From positions 1-33,631 of the IMG/VR virus record IMGVR_UViG_3300027734_000197: a stretch of 33,631 bases of DNA; one strand, written 5' to 3'. Below the pieces are notes generated by a model. That model was not told where the DNA came from. It searched no databases and was given only the letters and a program-made list of their open reading frames with translations. Source of the DNA: a virus. The translations under genes and the position numbers were made by a program. Shown piece after piece: positions 9,661 through 29,898 of this stretch. Every line of letters starts with the position of its first letter. Position 1 is the first letter of the stretch.

Positions 9661-10053
9661 TTAAGCAAAAGCTTTGTAAATGATAGTCACACGAGCTGCG
9701 CCTGCAGTAGCTGCAGTTCCAGTTTGTGTAAATGTCACCGTTGCGTAGTCAACATCACTGTTACCCACGTCAGCCCAAGCGCTGTACACACCAGTTGAAG
9801 CAACTGATGCGCGACCTGCCGAGCCTACGGAAGTAGAAGTGACATAAGCTGCAGCAGTGCCAGTTTTACCAACGGTCACAGTGTTGGTAGTGCCAGCATT
9901 AAACGCAGTCGTTACGTCGATGTGGACGTTCTGAATCTGCGCGTTTGCTGGAATAGTACCAATAGTGACTGCACCGGTATTGCTAAACGCAATCGTTGTG
10001 GTGATTGCGGACAGCTGGCCTGCCGAGTTAGTTACTGCATTATTGTATGCCAT
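9661..10053 (-). CDS. Small structural/decoration-like protein (130 aa)
   Basis: Starts MAYNNAVTNSAGQLSAITTTIAFSN and consists of alternating short beta strands rich in Thr, Ala, Val and Gly (GAVTIGTIPANAQIQNVHIDVTTAFNAGTTNTVTVGK...AARVTIIYKAFA). It immediately follows the capsid gene after the hairpin at 10,073-10,092, with AAGGA about 11 nt before its ATG. Position next to the major capsid gene and all-beta composition fit a decoration or head-surface protein, but no family is recognised, so the function remains inferred. Confidence 0.68.
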   Translation of the reverse strand: MAYNNAVTNSAGQLSAITTTIAFSNTGAVTIGTIPANAQIQNVHIDVTTAFNAGTTNTVTVGKTGTAAAYVTSTSVGSAGRASVASTGVYSAWADVGNSDVDYATVTFTQTGTAATAGAARVTIIYKAFA

Positions 10054-22484: not shown

Positions 22485-23912
22485 TTAGACGGCGTAGGGG
22501 TTTACCCGCTTAGGACGATCTTCTTCGTAGTCGTCATCCGGATTGTATACCGGGTCGATGGAAATTAACCCTAAGTCTCGCAAAAGCCTTAAAGCTTGAG
22601 ATGTGGAGTCTACCAAGTCATCGTGCCGGACTTCGGGGAAGGAGCATAGCTGGCTGATCAAAGGCTCTGCCCAATCACGAGCCATGCCCGCATTGACTGA
22701 GGACTCGGGAATGTAGACACGGCCCTTGGCAATGATGGGAGCCACGATGTTAAGGCGTGTAGTCTTGTCCGCGTTCCCGGGATTGTAGCTTCTCACAGGC
22801 AGACCTGCGCGTTGCAGATCTTGGATAAGCTGCGTGCCGGCTGACTTGTCCTCGATCAAGATCATGTCTACCTTTTTCCCGTGACCAAACTCATTCTCAT
22901 CACCGTAAATGGCGGTGGACTCCTCGATCACCTTAGGTCGCAGCTCAGGGTACTGCATGTACTCCTCCCAGCAATCAATGAGCATGACACTCATAGCCTT
23001 GTCGGGACTTGGCCTAAAGATACCCCACACAGTGCAGGCCGTCGGGTCGTTCTTGGTCTTGTCACTGGTCGCGCAGTCATAAGACTGAAGCACGTACTCA
23101 AATCTAGGCAGCGGCTTCTCATTGTCCCACAGCTTGAACCAATCACGCTTGATAATGCCCGCCTCTTCAGGGTCTAGAATCTCGGCGTAGATCTCTTGGC
23201 GTCCAAGCTTTGTGCCTTCGTACTGCAAGATCTGCGCTTGGAACGATGGGGCGAGGTTGTGGATGTTGTCGTACGTGCTGGCCTTGGTACATATCACATC
23301 CTCGCCGTCTCTGTTCACCAGATCCACGATCAATGGCTTGGGCTTAGGCGTTGTGGTGCATAGCATCAGGGGTTTCTGACCTAAGCGCATACCAAACTGG
23401 ATCATGTTCCAAGAGTCGTCAAGGTAATCCCATGCAGCAAGCTCGTCAAACCAGCCACCGTGGAACTGCGGACCTCGAAATCGTGATGGCTCAGACGCAG
23501 GGATGCCTTTGATCAGCGTGCCGTTGATGAGGACTATCTCATGTAGCGACCGTGTGTAGTGGTCGACCAACTGCTCGGGGATCACAGTCATCAGACCTGA
23601 GTCGCCTTCGAAGCAGACGTCGCGGACATCGGATGATGTGGGCGCAGAGACAAGCCATCTTGTCTTGGGGTGCGTCCATGCTTCCCACCACAGCCACTCG
23701 GCAGCTGCGCGAGTCTTGCCTGCGCCTCGTCCTGCGAGCAAGAGCCATATGCTCCACCAATTGCCGGGTGGCGGAACCTGATGATCATTGGCTATTGTTA
23801 GCCAGCTTTGTCGAGCCTTGTGCGCAGCTTTGCGCTCAGGTAGCATGAGGTTAAGATCAGGACCCTTGCGGATCCGATCTGCAAACTCACTTGCTCTTGC
23901 TTGGCTTAGCAT
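22485..23912 (-). CDS. terL: Terminase large subunit (TerL)
   Basis: 475 residues. ATPase: Walker A LAGRGAGKT (59-67), Walker B GGWFDE (152-157, catalytic E157), coupling motif CTTTPKP (185-191). RNase H-like nuclease: D279 (SYDCATSDK), E354/D355 (LIEDKSAGT) and D431/D432 with D435 (RHDDLVDSTSQAL). The protein packages concatemeric DNA into proheads through the portal, using the nuclease to cut. The C-terminus is charged. It overlaps TerS by 26 bp, so the two are coupled. The giant gene follows 14 nt downstream. Confidence 0.93.
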   Translation of the reverse strand: MLSQARASEFADRIRKGPDLNLMLPERKAAHKARQSWLTIANDHQVPPPGNWWSIWLLLAGRGAGKTRAAAEWLWWEAWTHPKTRWLVSAPTSSDVRDVCFEGDSGLMTVIPEQLVDHYTRSLHEIVLINGTLIKGIPASEPSRFRGPQFHGGWFDELAAWDYLDDSWNMIQFGMRLGQKPLMLCTTTPKPKPLIVDLVNRDGEDVICTKASTYDNIHNLAPSFQAQILQYEGTKLGRQEIYAEILDPEEAGIIKRDWFKLWDNEKPLPRFEYVLQSYDCATSDKTKNDPTACTVWGIFRPSPDKAMSVMLIDCWEEYMQYPELRPKVIEESTAIYGDENEFGHGKKVDMILIEDKSAGTQLIQDLQRAGLPVRSYNPGNADKTTRLNIVAPIIAKGRVYIPESSVNAGMARDWAEPLISQLCSFPEVRHDDLVDSTSQALRLLRDLGLISIDPVYNPDDDYEEDRPKRVNPYAV

Positions 23913-24357
23913 CGACTTGGCGCGTTGTTAGGAGATCATCCAACAAGTCTTGTGAGAAGTCATGCACCATGTCGACTTGGATGGGCCCGTCATTCTTACC
24001 TGTGACCTCGAGCTTGGAGTTCTCGCGGTATTGCTCGGGAAAGCGTGCTGCCATGCTTCGGCTCCACAACCCAGTGTTGAGTCTTGGCCCGCCGGGGTTC
24101 TCAATCATGTGATTCTGTGCGAGCTCTTCCCAATAACATAGCGCATCAAGTCGTGCTTCTTCCAATGCAGCCCGAAAATCGTCATGTGCGCCTTCCCAGT
24201 TTTGGAGATTGCGCCATCCGATGTTAAGCTTCGATGCGATTTGCCAACGCGATAAGCCCTCTTTGCCAAGGGCTACGATTTGATCGCAGTACGCTGGGTC
24301 GTACGTTGTAGGACGGCCCAAGAACTTACCGTTCTTAGATGGTGTCTTTGTAGTCAT
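23887..24357 (-). CDS. terS: Terminase small subunit-like DNA-binding protein
   Basis: 156 residues from MTTKTPSKNGKFLGRPTTYDPAY. This ATG is preferred to an upstream TTG that would add 21 residues and run into the GGTAACA repeats. A helix-turn-helix lies near residues 36-54 (LSRWQIASKLNIGWRNLQNW), followed by HDDFRAALEEARLDALCYWEELAQ and GGPRLNTGLWSRSMAARFPEQYRE, the layout of phage TerS-type proteins. The C-terminus (VDMVHDFSQDLLDDLLTTRQV) may contact TerL. No strong ribosome site is seen. It recognises packaging sites and activates TerL (family knowledge). Confidence 0.75.
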   Translation of the reverse strand: MTTKTPSKNGKFLGRPTTYDPAYCDQIVALGKEGLSRWQIASKLNIGWRNLQNWEGAHDDFRAALEEARLDALCYWEELAQNHMIENPGGPRLNTGLWSRSMAARFPEQYRENSKLEVTGKNDGPIQVDMVHDFSQDLLDDLLTTRQVDAKPSKSK

Positions 24358-24406
24358 GTGCGGATTGTAATCATAAAGTTGGAAGTGTGTACATTTTATT
24401 GCGGCA

Positions 24407-24566
24407 GGTAACGGTAACAAGGTAACATATGGTCCAGAAAACTATATAGCTATACACTATTACTATATATACTATACTTTATAAAATAATAGTTACCTAC
24501 TGTTACCTTGTTACTATTCAATCCAGATAAGGCTTTCAGAAGTAACAGTTTGGTAACAGGTAACAA
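24407..24566. promoter_or_regulatory. GGTAACA repeat array with AT-rich core (candidate origin or late control region)
   Basis: Between TerS and the primase-helicase, this stretch carries GGTAAC-type motifs at 24,407, 24,413, 24,421 (plus), 24,492, 24,501 (minus orientation, GTTACC), and 24,552 and 24,559 (plus). The central stretch (about 24,429-24,491) is almost all A/T with repeated TATAG/ACTAT steps. The layout (short repeats in both orientations beside an AT-rich melting zone) is like iteron origins and like operator clusters. It also lies just upstream of the late gene block, so leftward late promoters may be inside. Neither function can be shown from sequence alone. Confidence 0.62.
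24414..24514. repeat. Perfect 14-bp inverted repeat around AT-rich spacer
   Basis: The left arm GTAACAAGGTAACA (24,414-24,427) and right arm TGTTACCTTGTTAC (24,501-24,514) are exact reverse complements separated by 73 nt of mostly A/T. Each arm is two copies of the GTAACA unit. Confidence 0.9.
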
Positions 24567-24576
24567 GTGCTGAACA

Positions 24577-26664
24577 TCAGAAACTACCATTTTGCTCCAA
24601 TTCACGCTGCAGTGCGTCCTCTGTTCTCGTGACAACCTGTGACCAAGTTGGCTCGACCCTTCGAGCTAATGTTACCTCAGACGTGATAAACGTGGTGTAG
24701 CGTGAAGGTTTACCATGCACTTTTATGAGCTTACTAGGATCAATTGTCCCTTGGGGTTGCAAAGCTTTACGTATATATTGAGCCTTTGCGCGGCTATCAT
24801 GGCCCCAACGCTCACATAAAACTTGCAGCTGGGGCGCGGTGAACGCCGCCATCCCTTCAAGGTGATCATTGACCCAAGCTTTAAGCTCTAATGCAAAAGC
24901 TTCAAGTGGAGTCTTGGAAAGCTGGATCGCAGTCTCACGATACTGAGTCTTTGGTGCAGCTTGCTTGCAATCAAAGCCAGATATATCACGATTCATGTAC
25001 CAGTTAAGCATGATGCCAAAGCCCTGCTGCGCCTTGGCCCACTTCATCAAAGCCACGACCTTGGGGTGCGTTTCTTGGTTGGATAAACTGGCTGGACTGT
25101 AGATAGCTTCACGCCTTGCGGTATCACCCATGTGCGTAACGTAGCTCTTATTTGTCGTGAATACGAAGTTGATGTAGTTAGTGATGGCGTACTGCGCGCC
25201 ATACTTATTGTTGATGGTGAGCTCATTAGATGTGATGTAGTTCTTAAGCTTCGCCGAGTGGTCATCACGATCAGACGATGGCTCATTCACGACTATGAAG
25301 ATCTTACCTTTTAACATGCCGTTGAAGTTGCCAAATAGCTCATCAGGCCCGATGATGGCAGCCGGGCCTCCGTCCCCAATGCCTAGCATCTCGGCTATAA
25401 ACTCGGCGATAGCTGATTTGCCGATGCCCTCAATGGAAGAAGCGAACTGCGGTGTGGTGTAGTTTCTTCTCCATGGGAATTGGACCACATTGGCCACCCA
25501 GTTATGCCAGTAGTCGGCAAAAGCAGGCTCATCACGAAAGAAGTATTGGCAAAACTCAAGGTAAGGTGTAGGATCACCCACGGTGGGCTCATTGGACCAG
25601 TCCTTAAACAGGTTGTAATGCCTTGTTGGCGTGATAGTGAGGCCTTGGTACTCGGGATACATGCCTACGCCATCCAGATCACACCGCTTTGCCCAGTCCT
25701 TATAGGCATCCAAGATGTAGATGGTCTTGCTGCTGGTGCCACCGTTTGGCCTTTGCGTGACTTGCACGAAGTAATCCTGCGCTGCGTCTATGCGTGCTTT
25801 GTTCCACCCAAGGATGAGACCGTCTTTGAGCCTGATCACATCGCCGTTGATGAGGGCGTACTGCGTTTTGAACTCATAAAGCTTGGTTTCAAGGGTGTCG
25901 ATGCCGTTCATCACCGTGCTGGTGCTGGTGAGGACTTGACCTAGGTTGCCGCCAGCTTGTAGGTGGTCATCAATAGCGTACTTGGTGCCCTTACCAGCGC
26001 CGAATCTGCCGACACGACAAAGGTGTACCTCGGCGCCAAGACCGCGAAGCGTGACAGCAAGCTTTGTTTCGGCCATGCCAACCTGTTCATTAGGCTCACC
26101 ATCTTCGCCGGCCCCATCATAATCGAAGACAATGTAAACCTTGCGGTGCTTCTCCGCGAAGCTGGTCTTACGCTGCCATATGATCTTCATCAGGTCTTTG
26201 TGCAGGTGTAAACCAGATTTGTCAGTCCAACTTGTAACACCGGCTAAACCTAGTGTAGCGTAGTTAAGGGTGTCCTTGCTGATCTGCTTGGCGATGGCCC
26301 ATGTCTTAAACTCACCCTCGGTGATGATGATGGGAACATCTACATCCTGCGCGACCTGCTTCCAACCGATAGTTGGTGGAAAGTATACGTGGCTTCCGCT
26401 GGCTCGAGCCTGAGAATACTTCATTTTGCCCTTCGGTGTCAGTATCCTGACCCGATTAAAGCCGGTTTCTTGGCCCAGCATATCAAAATACGGGATTTTG
26501 ATGCTCCACTCACGAGTGTGGCCTAGTAGTTGGTAACATTCCTCGGGGTCAAGCAAAGATAGGCCCAGCGCCTGTATATCTTTGTCCTCAAATGCCCTCG
26601 CCGCTAGGAAGTTAGTGTATAATTCTGTCGGCTGTGTTGTTAGTGCTGCAAAACCTGATGACAT
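24577..26664 (-). CDS. Bifunctional primase-helicase (TOPRIM/DUF3854 plus SF3/DUF5906 ATPase)
   Basis: 695 residues. N-terminal TOPRIM-like module: IIITEGEFKTWAIAKQ (E116), ATLGLAGVTSW, VYIVFDYDG (D181, D183), as in DUF3854. C-terminal SF3-type ATPase: Walker A SIEGIGKSA (K416, S417), Walker B KIFIVVNEP (N460, E461), polar sensor FTTN (N505), and Arg finger candidate RR (517-518), as in DUF5906. It would unwind the fork and prime DNA. It is on the minus strand although the polymerase is rightward. No strong ribosome site precedes the ATG. Confidence 0.85.
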   Translation of the reverse strand: MSSGFAALTTQPTELYTNFLAARAFEDKDIQALGLSLLDPEECYQLLGHTREWSIKIPYFDMLGQETGFNRVRILTPKGKMKYSQARASGSHVYFPPTIGWKQVAQDVDVPIIITEGEFKTWAIAKQISKDTLNYATLGLAGVTSWTDKSGLHLHKDLMKIIWQRKTSFAEKHRKVYIVFDYDGAGEDGEPNEQVGMAETKLAVTLRGLGAEVHLCRVGRFGAGKGTKYAIDDHLQAGGNLGQVLTSTSTVMNGIDTLETKLYEFKTQYALINGDVIRLKDGLILGWNKARIDAAQDYFVQVTQRPNGGTSSKTIYILDAYKDWAKRCDLDGVGMYPEYQGLTITPTRHYNLFKDWSNEPTVGDPTPYLEFCQYFFRDEPAFADYWHNWVANVVQFPWRRNYTTPQFASSIEGIGKSAIAEFIAEMLGIGDGGPAAIIGPDELFGNFNGMLKGKIFIVVNEPSSDRDDHSAKLKNYITSNELTINNKYGAQYAITNYINFVFTTNKSYVTHMGDTARREAIYSPASLSNQETHPKVVALMKWAKAQQGFGIMLNWYMNRDISGFDCKQAAPKTQYRETAIQLSKTPLEAFALELKAWVNDHLEGMAAFTAPQLQVLCERWGHDSRAKAQYIRKALQPQGTIDPSKLIKVHGKPSRYTTFITSEVTLARRVEPTWSQVVTRTEDALQRELEQNGSF

Positions 26665-26801
26665 AGTGCTTTTCTTTGCAAGTTGCCTACTTTATAAGGA
26701 TCTAGACTTACCTCTAGGTCCTTTTCTTTTGCCTGTGTGCAGGCTATATCAGGTGCGAATATGCTCGGCCAATGGTGGCCATGCGTAATGTCAATAGTCA
26801 T
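26640..26801 (-). CDS. Possible small protein upstream of the primase-helicase
   Basis: A 53-residue reading frame, MTIDITHGHHWPSIFAPDIACTQAKEK...LQRKALCHQVLQH, starts within the divergent intergenic region and ends 25 bp inside the primase-helicase start in another frame. A GGAAC lies 5 nt before its ATG. The protein has no recognised motif apart from a His cluster near residues 7-10. It could be a short leader gene coupling translation to the primase, or a chance frame. Composition is not obviously non-coding, but I cannot confirm it. Confidence 0.3.
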   Translation of the reverse strand: MTIDITHGHHWPSIFAPDIACTQAKEKDLEVSLDPYKVGNLQRKALCHQVLQH

Positions 26802-26908
26802 AATGTTCCAATTTATCAATAAAAATCTACCCTGTACGGCAGACGGTGGGGTAAGTAATATACATCAGCTGCAGTGGCGGTAAAAAGTATTTCTTTTCGG
26901 TCTTTTGA

Positions 26909-26920
26909 GTAACTGTTACC
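26909..26920. promoter_or_regulatory. GTAACTGTTACC palindrome (operator candidate)
   Basis: GTAAC and GTTAC are mirror halves with one base between. Read in reverse it gives GGTAACAG, the same 8-mer as at 24,552-24,559 and 24,500-24,507 on the other side of the primase-helicase gene. This suggests the same protein binds both flanks. Confidence 0.5.
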
Positions 26921-27111: not shown

Positions 27112-28074
27112 ATGGCACACTTAATCGCAAACACTATCTCCGGCAAAGCAGCAATCGCTTACGTTGGTGAAACTCCATGGCACGGTCTTGGCCAGCAGTT
27201 GACTGCTGACTCAACCATTGAAACATGGGCCGAGGAATCTGGCCTTGACTTCCAATTGGCTACCGCCGATGTCCAATTCACTCCACCAGCCAGTGTGTGG
27301 AATGGCTTCAAGGCGCAGGCCCTGCCTTATGACGGCAAGAAAGTTATGTATCGCACAGACAGCAACTTGCCCCTCGGCTTGGTGTCTAGCCAGTACAAAA
27401 TTGTTCAGCCGATCGAGGTCCTCGAATTCTTCCGCGACATGGTCGGCAATATTGCTCACCTTGAAACAGCCGGTGTTCTTCGCAATGGCGCGCATTACTG
27501 GGCCCTCGCCAAGATGGATGGCGAGTTCAACATTGCAGGCGATAAGGTTAACCAATATCTCTTATTGGCCAGCTCCGCTGATGGCTCTCTGGCCACTCAG
27601 GCTCGCCTCACCAGCGTTCGTGTTGTATGTAATAACACATTGCAATTGGCGCAGCAAAAAGGCAAGGCCAACGTAAGTGTTCGTCATAACTCCATCTTCC
27701 GCCCCGAGTCCATTAAAGCCGAGTTAGCTAACAGCAACGAAGCATTCCGCATGTTCGAGCAAACGGCCAAGTTTTTGGCTAGCATCAAGGTTGGCTCCAC
27801 ACAAGCACAGGCCATCTTCACCAAGATCCTCGGCGGCGATGAAAAGAATCCTTCACGCGCAGCAGCCAGAGCATTGGCTCTCTTCGAAGGTGCAGGCATT
27901 GGCGCTGAGTTGGAATCAGCCAAGGGCACAGCATGGGGCGCGTTGAATGCAGTCACACAGCTGATGGATTGGGAAACAGCACGCACCGGCGATGCTCGGT
28001 TGGCCAATGCTTGGTTCGGCGGCGGCGTTAATGTTAAGCAACAAACTGTTGATGCCCTCTTGGCTTTGTCATAA
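27112..28074 (+). CDS. DUF932 / TIGR03299 phage-plasmid protein
   Basis: 320 residues. Family marks: ETPWHGLGQQL near 20-30, PLGLVSSQYKIVQPIEVLEFF (87-107), YLLLASSADGSLATQARLTSVRVVCNNTLQLA (about 148-179), and VRHNSIFRPESIKAE. Length matches the family (about 310-340). The biochemical role is not firmly known; DUF932 proteins are common early genes of phages and large plasmids. It is the first gene of the rightward operon, has its own promoter and leader, and is followed by a terminator-like hairpin, so it is probably made at high level very early. GAAAGG lies about 8 nt upstream. Confidence 0.82.
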   Translation: MAHLIANTISGKAAIAYVGETPWHGLGQQLTADSTIETWAEESGLDFQLATADVQFTPPASVWNGFKAQALPYDGKKVMYRTDSNLPLGLVSSQYKIVQPIEVLEFFRDMVGNIAHLETAGVLRNGAHYWALAKMDGEFNIAGDKVNQYLLLASSADGSLATQARLTSVRVVCNNTLQLAQQKGKANVSVRHNSIFRPESIKAELANSNEAFRMFEQTAKFLASIKVGSTQAQAIFTKILGGDEKNPSRAAARALALFEGAGIGAELESAKGTAWGALNAVTQLMDWETARTGDARLANAWFGGGVNVKQQTVDALLALS

Positions 28075-28077
28075 TAT

Positions 28078-28107
28078 TTTTAGGGGTACCTCACACGGCC
28101 CCTAAAA
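28078..28107 (+). terminator. Hairpin terminator or attenuator after DUF932 gene
   Basis: TTTTAGGGG (28,078-28,086) and CCCCTAAAA (28,099-28,107) form a perfect 9-bp stem with a 12-nt loop, 4 nt after the stop codon. The downstream TTGTTG is only partly U-rich. Because the stem is flanked by T and A runs it may work in both directions. Confidence 0.7.
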
Positions 28108-28171
28108 TTGTTGTACAATTTAATCTCACGTTACTAGTCCTCCTGTTTTTTTGATTATTGAAAGGTATTGT

Positions 28172-28684
28172 ATGAACATCTTTTTCTTACACCATCTGCC
28201 CAGCATTGCGGCAGTTATGCATTGCGACAAGCATGTCGGCAAAATGCTTATCGAATCCTGCCAGCTGCTTGCAACTGCGCATCACTTTTACGGCAACGGC
28301 GACAAAGTATCCTATCGCCCCACGCATGCCAATCACCCCTCAGCCGTCTGGGTTCGCGAATCACGGTTGCATTACAACTGGGTTAGCGATCTTGCACGTT
28401 TCCTTGGCCGTGAATTCAAGTACCGCTATGGCCACGGCCACAAAAGCAATGATGTACTACACGCCGAGCTTCTTGTGTGCCCCGAGGCCATGCTCATGCT
28501 TCCTACCAAATGGTCTCCACCTACATTGGCAATGCCCGATGAATTCAAAAGCAACGACCACGTCGCATCATATCGTCGCTATTACGCTAGCAAAATTGCT
28601 ACCATGCCGCTTGTGTACAACAAAGGCAAAGACCAGCAGCCATTGTGGTTGCAAGACTTACTCAACCAAGTGGAGTCCGTATGA
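28172..28684 (+). CDS. Conserved phage protein (HCDKHVxKM family)
   Basis: 170 residues from MNIFFLHHLP. The ATG at 28,172 has GAAAGG 7 nt upstream, identical in context to the DUF932 leader; an upstream TTG adds 7 residues and is less likely. Conserved marks: HCDKHVGKMLIESCQLLATAHH (17-38), NHPSAVWVRESRLHYNW (54-70), YRYGHGHKS (84-92) and KWSPPTLAMPDEFKS. The family is frequent in T4-like and cyanophages, where it is sometimes annotated as a pyrimidine-dimer glycosylase-like protein; I see only weak support for that activity. Stop overlaps the next start (ATGA). Confidence 0.75.
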   Translation: MNIFFLHHLPSIAAVMHCDKHVGKMLIESCQLLATAHHFYGNGDKVSYRPTHANHPSAVWVRESRLHYNWVSDLARFLGREFKYRYGHGHKSNDVLHAELLVCPEAMLMLPTKWSPPTLAMPDEFKSNDHVASYRRYYASKIATMPLVYNKGKDQQPLWLQDLLNQVESV

Positions 28685-29133
28685 CTAAAACTGTAACCAT
28701 CCCTCTTATCGAGCTGCAGGAAATCTACCAAGGCATTGAGGCTTTTGTTCTTAATGCACCTGCTGATGCTACTGCCTTGGCATCATACAAAGAGCAATTG
28801 GAATTGCGTATGTCAGCAGCACGCGCACTTGGCCACCTCAGCGCATACGTTATTTACGCAACACCAAAGCCTACCATGCCACATGAATACGAATACTCCT
28901 TAGATCACTATGGCTTAGACAATTGGCAAGCCGAGTGGGGTGATGGCGACATTGAACGCGACATTGTTGTTATGTATACCCCCACGCATCGCGGTTTTGA
29001 TTACTGCGTTTTGATGGATGGCAAAGACATTACAGCAATGCTTAACCCTGCCAATCGCAATGCGTATGAGGCCCTTATGTCAAAAGAATGCGCAGCCCGC
29101 GCTACAATAGCAAATGATTATGCATATGACTAA
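28681..29133 (+). CDS. Hypothetical early protein (150 aa)
   Basis: Starts MTKTVTIPLIELQEIYQGIEAFV at an ATG overlapping the upstream stop by 4 bp (ATGA), a sign of translational coupling. An N-terminal helical region (1-60) is followed by a beta-rich part (AYVIYATPKPTM..., DIVVMYTPTHRGFDYCVLMDGKDITAML). No family is recognised. It is followed by the pyrophosphohydrolase gene with an 8-bp overlap, so it belongs to the same early operon and may act in nucleotide or replication biology (context only). Confidence 0.7.
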   Translation: MTKTVTIPLIELQEIYQGIEAFVLNAPADATALASYKEQLELRMSAARALGHLSAYVIYATPKPTMPHEYEYSLDHYGLDNWQAEWGDGDIERDIVVMYTPTHRGFDYCVLMDGKDITAMLNPANRNAYEALMSKECAARATIANDYAYD

Positions 29134-29533
29134 TTCAGAAAAAGTACTGGCCTTCCGTCGCAAGATGGGCCTGCCAGTTTCCACTACACCTACTCTGCTC
29201 TCGTCTGAGCAGGCCAGTTACTTTGCTCGCTTCATCATGGAAGAGCTTAGTGAATACCTTCGTGCTTGCGAGGAGAATAGCCTTGTTGATGCTGCTGATG
29301 CTTTGGTCGATCTTGTCTACGTCACCATGGGTTGCAGCCATGCTATGGGGCTACCTTTTGACCAGCTTTTTAATGTGGTACACGAAGCCAACATGAACAA
29401 AGAACCAGCCAATGACTACATTAGGTCGTTGCGCGGCTCACAATACGACGTCATTAAGCCTATGGGTTGGCAAGCACCTGAGGCCATGATGTTGGCCATC
29501 ATTCAAACCGAACAACAGAAAGCAAGGCCATGA
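29126..29533 (+). CDS. MazG/PRA-PH-like nucleotide pyrophosphohydrolase
   Basis: 135 residues from MTNSEKVLAFRRKMGLP; in-frame ATGs at 29,114 and 29,120 are possible but the one at 29,126 gives the usual overlap. The all-alpha NTP-PPase metal motif is clear: MEELSEYLRACEE (E39, E40, E43) followed by LVDAADALVDLVYVTMG (D55, D58, D62), then GLPFDQLFNVVHEANMNK. These enzymes hydrolyse nucleoside triphosphates between alpha and beta phosphates. In phages related proteins are proposed to adjust nucleotide or alarmone pools; substrate is not predictable here. The stop overlaps the next gene by 4 bp. Confidence 0.84.
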   Translation: MTNSEKVLAFRRKMGLPVSTTPTLLSSEQASYFARFIMEELSEYLRACEENSLVDAADALVDLVYVTMGCSHAMGLPFDQLFNVVHEANMNKEPANDYIRSLRGSQYDVIKPMGWQAPEAMMLAIIQTEQQKARP

Positions 29534-29898
29534 ATCTTAAAGATCTTATTGACATATATGTCGAAACTAAAAATGCTCGTGAAGAGTTATCCTCACAGGT
29601 CAAAGAAAAAACTGAAAAGCTAACAAGCTTGGAAAGTGACATCATGGCCCTTATGTCTGATGCTGGCATCAGCAAGGCGGCGTCGGATAAAGCATCATGC
29701 ACTATGCGCATGAGCAAACACCCTGCCATTGATGATTGGCAAGCTTTTTACGGCTATGTCGCTGCGACAAGCCAATTCGAATTGCTGCATAAGCGGCTTT
29801 CCTCAACAGCCTTCCGTGAGCGGTGGGAAGCTGGTGAGGCCATCCCCGGTACTTCAGTCTCTGAGGTCTGGGAACTTACCGTCGTTCGTCGTAAATAA
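29530..29898 (+). CDS. Hypothetical early protein with coiled-coil N-terminus (122 aa)
   Basis: Starts MNLKDLIDIYVETKNAREELSSQVKEKTEKLTSLESDIMALMSDAGISKAASD, a strong coiled-coil segment. A compact C-terminal part (HPAIDDWQAFYGYVAATSQFELLHKRLSSTAFRERWEAGEAIPGTSVSEVWELTVVRRK) follows. The latter half resembles a small domain repeatedly seen next to phage replication genes, but I cannot name the family. ATGA overlap with the upstream gene suggests coupling. Confidence 0.72.
   Translation: MNLKDLIDIYVETKNAREELSSQVKEKTEKLTSLESDIMALMSDAGISKAASDKASCTMRMSKHPAIDDWQAFYGYVAATSQFELLHKRLSSTAFRERWEAGEAIPGTSVSEVWELTVVRRK

Follow-up and report, generated by a model that had tools for sequence, protein, structure and literature searches.

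A repeat array between the primase-helicase gene and the terminase small subunit gene (terS) of an uncultured tailed phage is very likely a replication origin bound by the phage's own primase-helicase. The array at 24407-24565, together with a unit inside the primase-helicase gene at 24670, would be recognized by the C-terminal winged helix of this enzyme. The comparison of related sequences reveals a conserved architecture, a concerted switching of the core units from one DNA word to another, and a co-variation of the word with the wing of the winged helix. The window, meaning the whole stretch of DNA that was analyzed (33,631 nucleotides), is a 33.6-kb fragment from a phage group with genomes of about 52-57 kb.

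Organization of the repeat array

The array occupies a gap of 219 bp between the primase-helicase gene and terS, which starts at 24357 on the minus strand. The features of this region are as follows.

24577-26664, minus strand: primase-helicase, presumed initiator, with DUF3854, a DUF5906/P4-family SF3 helicase and a C-terminal winged helix
24541-24565, plus strand: upstream cluster of three units, AGTAACAG ... GGTAACA GGTAACA
24492-24515, minus strand: F set of iterons, three units, AGTAACAA GGTAACAGTA GGTAAC on the minus strand
24427-24491, no strand assigned: AT-rich core, presumed melting zone, 65 bp, 80% A+T
24407-24426, plus strand: R set of iterons, three units, GGTAAC GGTAACAA GGTAACA, closest to terS and conserved in relatives

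Within the array, GGTAAC was found at 24407, 24413 and 24421 (plus strand), at 24492 and 24502 (minus strand), and at 24552 and 24559 (plus strand). Five of these seven clustered copies have the full form GGTAACA, and GTTACT at 24510 and AGTAAC at 24541 are additional array members. The F set is inverted relative to the R set, and together they form a 14-bp inverted repeat with arms at 24414-24427 and 24501-24514. The core carries a conserved block, TATATAG(T)TTTC as read on the minus strand, beside the R set. The upstream cluster begins 11 bp past the primase stop codon, and the same location is used in relatives. Read along the terS strand, the order is the intragenic unit, the primase stop, the upstream cluster, the forward units (AGTAACaaGGTAACagtaGGTAAC), the core with TATATAGTTTTC, the inverted units (GTTACCttGTTACCGTTACC), a promoter-like sequence, and the terS start.

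The motif copies to the left and to the right of the gene, and the inverted repeat, were all found where the first-pass annotation had placed them. The sequence GGTAACAG is located at 24500, 24552 and 26913, and also at 9758, a site absent from that annotation. In the whole window, GGTAAC occurs 26 times against 12 expected, and a count of 26 was reached in none of 100 shuffles. The motif is clustered far beyond chance: seven copies lie in a 160-bp stretch, and the maximum was three in 400 simulated windows (first-order Markov).

A further proposal of the first-pass annotation was that sites on both sides of the gene govern primase expression. Because the primase is encoded on the minus strand, the left-hand cluster follows the primase gene and precedes terS. 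From this downstream position the main cluster is unlikely to control the primase, and the site on the right does not switch with the array, as described below. Further along the window, 28151-28684 encodes a phrog_624 protein, annotated as DNA-binding, within the early operon.

Conservation of the architecture in relatives

The architecture is conserved in relatives: 71 distinct loci carry the array in the same gap, with the order of the parts kept at primase identities down to 48%. Sixty-six of the 71 loci were parsed automatically, and all 66 displayed opposed unit sets around a core of 62-87 bp with a mean of 80% A+T; no misoriented unit was found on either side of the core. The five unparsed loci represent two groups with divergent words, L059/L063/L074 and L111/L112. 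This architecture supports the earlier proposal of a probable iteron-type origin with an AT-rich melting zone and a phage protein as the binder. In L008, L021, L037/L108, L040 and L043-L047, an extra 120-200 bp with conserved sequence is present between the primase stop and the array.

Primase homologues of isolated phages share 24-26% identity with the window protein, and their matches stop mostly before residue 600. The three isolated phages that were checked (PW916, AXL_3, and ctUtU524), with primases of 24-25% identity, are without such an array, and their matches stop at about residue 520-595, short of the winged helix. A scan of genome contigs returned distant homologues only and no host.

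GC skew was also compared. Only three or four of five genomes have a shallow minimum no more than about 5 kb from the array; this is a weak hint of an origin near the array, and gene orientation confounds the skew.

Word classes and concerted switching of the core units

The relatives fall into four word classes. Class A (GGTAACA or AGTAACA) comprises the near relatives of the window, class B carries GGTTACA or AGTTACA, class C carries ATTACA, and class D carries GATACA (one case). Each word is uniform across its core array.

The switch is best seen between L036 (class A) and L097 (class B), two phages with about 95% DNA identity across their primase, terS, and terL genes. The AT-rich core and the spacers are almost unchanged between them, and all six core units have changed from GTAAC to GTTAC. 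The primase-helicase changes concentrate in the wing region, where KLIKVHGKPSRF is replaced by RMIKVHGKAGRY (wing region compared: KLIKVHGKPSRFTTFITPEVTSAQRA in L036 versus RMIKVHGKAGRYTTFITPEVTQHKLF in L097), and the helix-turn-helix (HTH) of TerS is identical. Copying is unlikely to homogenize short inverted units that are separated by 65 bp; the concerted change is most simply explained by selection through a DNA-binding protein.

In L033/L097 and L107, old and new words are mixed in the outer (upstream) cluster but not among the six core units, which are uniform, as though the core were the first to switch. In the near-complete class B genome G003 (L121-L123), an accessory block of six ORFs (about 27466-29845 of the contig) has the DNA polymerase gene on one side and conserved genes on the other, and it has no counterpart in two class A genomes or in the more distant G004.

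A unit of the array inside the primase-helicase coding sequence

The word is also found within the coding sequence of the presumed initiator.

24670-24676, minus strand: intragenic unit GGTAACA, within the Glu-Val-Thr codons GAG GTA ACA; class B has GTT ACA

Among distinct sequences, the last 43 primase codons contain the class A unit in 26 of 29 class A sequences versus 2 of 24 class B sequences. The class B unit is present there in none of the 29 class A sequences and in 22 of the 24 class B sequences (Fisher p about 1e-9 for the A unit and 6e-13 for the B unit, kinship ignored). Segments of equal length elsewhere in the primase gene contain either unit in 5-8%. Val-Thr is spelled GTA-ACA at a class A to class B ratio of 29:0 and GTT-ACA at a ratio of 0:23, counts that, together with the column statistics below, partly share descent; class C spells Ile-Thr as ATT-ACA. 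The codon choice for Val-Thr follows the class, which indicates that the DNA word is selected inside the coding sequence.

Two copies at the ends of the gene had been noted in the first pass. The copy at 24670 belongs to the array. The copy at 26532 does not switch with it and has no link to class; counts in the primase body are at background, and this copy was rejected as an array member.

The winged helix of the primase-helicase as the candidate reader

The DUF3854 part of the primase-helicase is Toprim-like, with Toprim Pfam matches below threshold. DUF5906 was matched in Pfam, and a P4-family primase_Cterm match in NCBIfam was below threshold. The full model resembles the NrS-1 helicase and SaPI5 PriRep1 (Foldseek), and NrS-1 is both the best structural match and the best PDB sequence match for the helicase region. 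Two features of the C-terminal part are central here.

24595-24909, minus strand: C-terminal winged helix, presumed iteron-binding domain, residues 586-690, H-S-H-H-S-S-H
24682-24729, minus strand: wing hairpin, residues 646-661; Leu646 divides class A from all others

The winged helix was modelled separately with a mean pLDDT of 85, about 90 over the fold. When this domain alone was used for a fold search, the only matches were generic winged helices (Z about 5), none of them strong. With the winged-helix profile (24595-24760), ETS factors such as PU.1 were matched weakly in the recognition helix (E 0.03-0.2); the likeness is not significant and is perhaps convergent.

In a post hoc column scan of 695 positions, the best single-residue predictors of class A were residues 646, 660, 653, and 661, all of them in the wing hairpin. 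All class A sequences have Leu646, and all other sequences lack it (100%). Five of five independent tree pairs agree with this result, a number of pairs that cannot attain p 0.05. In the recognition helix, Arg632 is constant in class A and is Lys in all class C sequences.

A partial Mantel test on word distance, controlled for the rest of the primase, gave 0.44 for the wing, 0.34 for the whole domain, 0.16 for the TerS HTH, and -0.06 for the helicase; the array adjoins the winged-helix codons, so physical linkage could inflate the correlation between word and wing. On the evidence of this co-variation, the C-terminal winged helix makes the primase-helicase itself the best candidate for the reader of the units.

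terS, the right-hand site, and other readings of the array

Three further features bear on other readings of the array.

23887-24357, minus strand: terminase small subunit (terS), next gene downstream; its HTH does not follow the repeat class
24364-24393, minus strand: terS promoter-like sequence, TGTACA (24388-24393), 18 bp, TACAAT (24364-24369)
26909-26920, no strand assigned: right-hand site GTAACTGTTACC, between the divergent primase and DUF932 genes

TACAAT ends 6 bp ahead of the terS ATG, and a TACAAT-like element is kept in many relatives. With so short a distance to the ATG, terS may be transcribed into a leaderless mRNA.

The right-hand site has been kept in near relatives. It remains GGTAAC in L033/L097 and L039/L107, although their whole core arrays are now GGTTAC; more distant class B phages (the L048 group) have GGTTAC at this site, so a lagging auxiliary site is possible. 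The right-hand site is either unrelated to the array or lagging behind it. The first-pass annotation had described an array on both sides of the gene. A site is indeed present and conserved on the right, but it does not switch together with the core array, and its membership of the same set was not upheld.

The array could instead be an operator at which a phage regulator controls the late operon led by terS, and possibly the early genes via the right-hand site. About 14 bp separate the R set from the terS promoter-like sequence downstream of it, and a GGTAAC site is also present in the divergent early promoter region. An operator, however, needs neither symmetrical inverted sets around an AT-rich core nor a unit inside the primase gene. 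When the array switches, the early-region site does not follow, and the protein that co-varies with the word is the primase-helicase wing, as far as can be judged from the part of the phage genes that is comparable between classes. The operator explanation is therefore improbable. Control of late transcription by the array, which had also been suggested in the first pass, is possible from its position only.

Still less probable, with a very low likelihood, is a role of the units as a packaging site (cos or pac) to which the small terminase would bind. The array is directly upstream of terS, and TerS has an N-terminal HTH. In that case the word should follow TerS, but there are two HTH alleles and each occurs with both word classes, so that all four combinations exist; L036, of class A, and L033, of class B, have the same TerS HTH. 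Since its alleles are uncoupled from class, TerS cannot be what determines the word. The weaker partial correlation of the TerS HTH (0.16) and the contigs passing unbroken through the array also argue against a packaging site.

Shared descent and drift of repeats without a reader can practically be discarded: close relatives have most of the region in common by descent, but all core units alter at the same base with the adjoining sequence unchanged, the architecture persists at 48-60% primase identity, and synonymous codons track class.

Proposed mechanism and comparison with known systems

In the origin reading, the C-terminal winged helix of the primase-helicase would bind the GGTAACA units. 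With opposed unit sets on both flanks of the AT-rich core, two helicase rings would probably be placed head to head. Melting of the core would follow, and the SF3 helicase would load and unwind the DNA in both directions, while the Toprim-type primase domain would synthesize the first primers. Binding, ring loading, melting, and origin activity are steps that we infer.

PICI origins contain an AT-rich region between two iteron sets, an organization then known from no other bacterial replicon (PMC6092414), and the C-terminal domain of SaPI Rep acts on iterons directly downstream of its own gene (PMC7581432). The phage array is similar in that it lies immediately 3' of the primase-helicase gene (the first unit being 11 bp past the stop) and, in the 66 parsed loci, has an AT-rich region flanked by two sets of short iterons. 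Reading of the iterons by the helicase C-terminal domain is suggested here by co-variation. Unlike PICI/SaPI, the array is in a tailed phage of about 55 kb with its own capsid and terminase genes; the window and its relatives carry portal, terminase, and structural genes, and so differ from PICI satellites. The units here are 6-7 bp, the sets are inverted, one unit is inside the gene of the initiator, and the word differs between clades.

The P4 alpha protein combines a Toprim-type primase, an SF3 helicase, and a winged helix in a single protein, and its C-terminal winged helix binds the ori repeats (PMC4234260). The phage enzyme likewise has an SF3-type helicase and a C-terminal winged helix, with Toprim indicated by sub-threshold Pfam matches. 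Its sequence similarity to P4 alpha is weak, however; the P4 origin-binding domain was absent among the listed fold or sequence matches of the winged helix, and no crr-like second region has been demonstrated here. NrS-1 resembles the phage primase-helicase in the structure and sequence of its SF3 helicase part but has an AEP-type Prim/Pol. On the best reading, an arrangement of the same kind as in the PICI/SaPI and P4 replicons appears to be present in a group of uncultured tailed phages.

In the system of PLE RepA and the ICP1 Odn nuclease, iterons and initiator diversify together under origin attack (PMC8263062); RepA is a RepA_N initiator without helicase or primase, unlike the phage primase-helicase. 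A comparable cause for the phage array is doubtful, though less so than the operator: word and matching wing might change together owing to attack or competition on the word, and the classes might be incompatibility or immunity groups. The attackers could conceivably be satellites, origin-directed nucleases, or superinfecting relatives using the same origin. Class B phages that switched recently and hold old outer words would, on this tentative view, have been caught mid-switch.

Read as an origin bound by the primase-helicase, the array indicates where replication would start, and with which initiator, in an abundant group of uncultured freshwater phages. The iteron/AT-rich/iteron type of origin, served by a self-loading primase-helicase, would thereby be extended beyond satellites to a tailed phage. 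The word classes are paired with wing sequences, so that natural variants indicate which residues go with which DNA word. This natural series, including the near-identical L036 and L097, would allow a direct test of the code by which an SF3 initiator recognizes its DNA and of the way it changes its origin.
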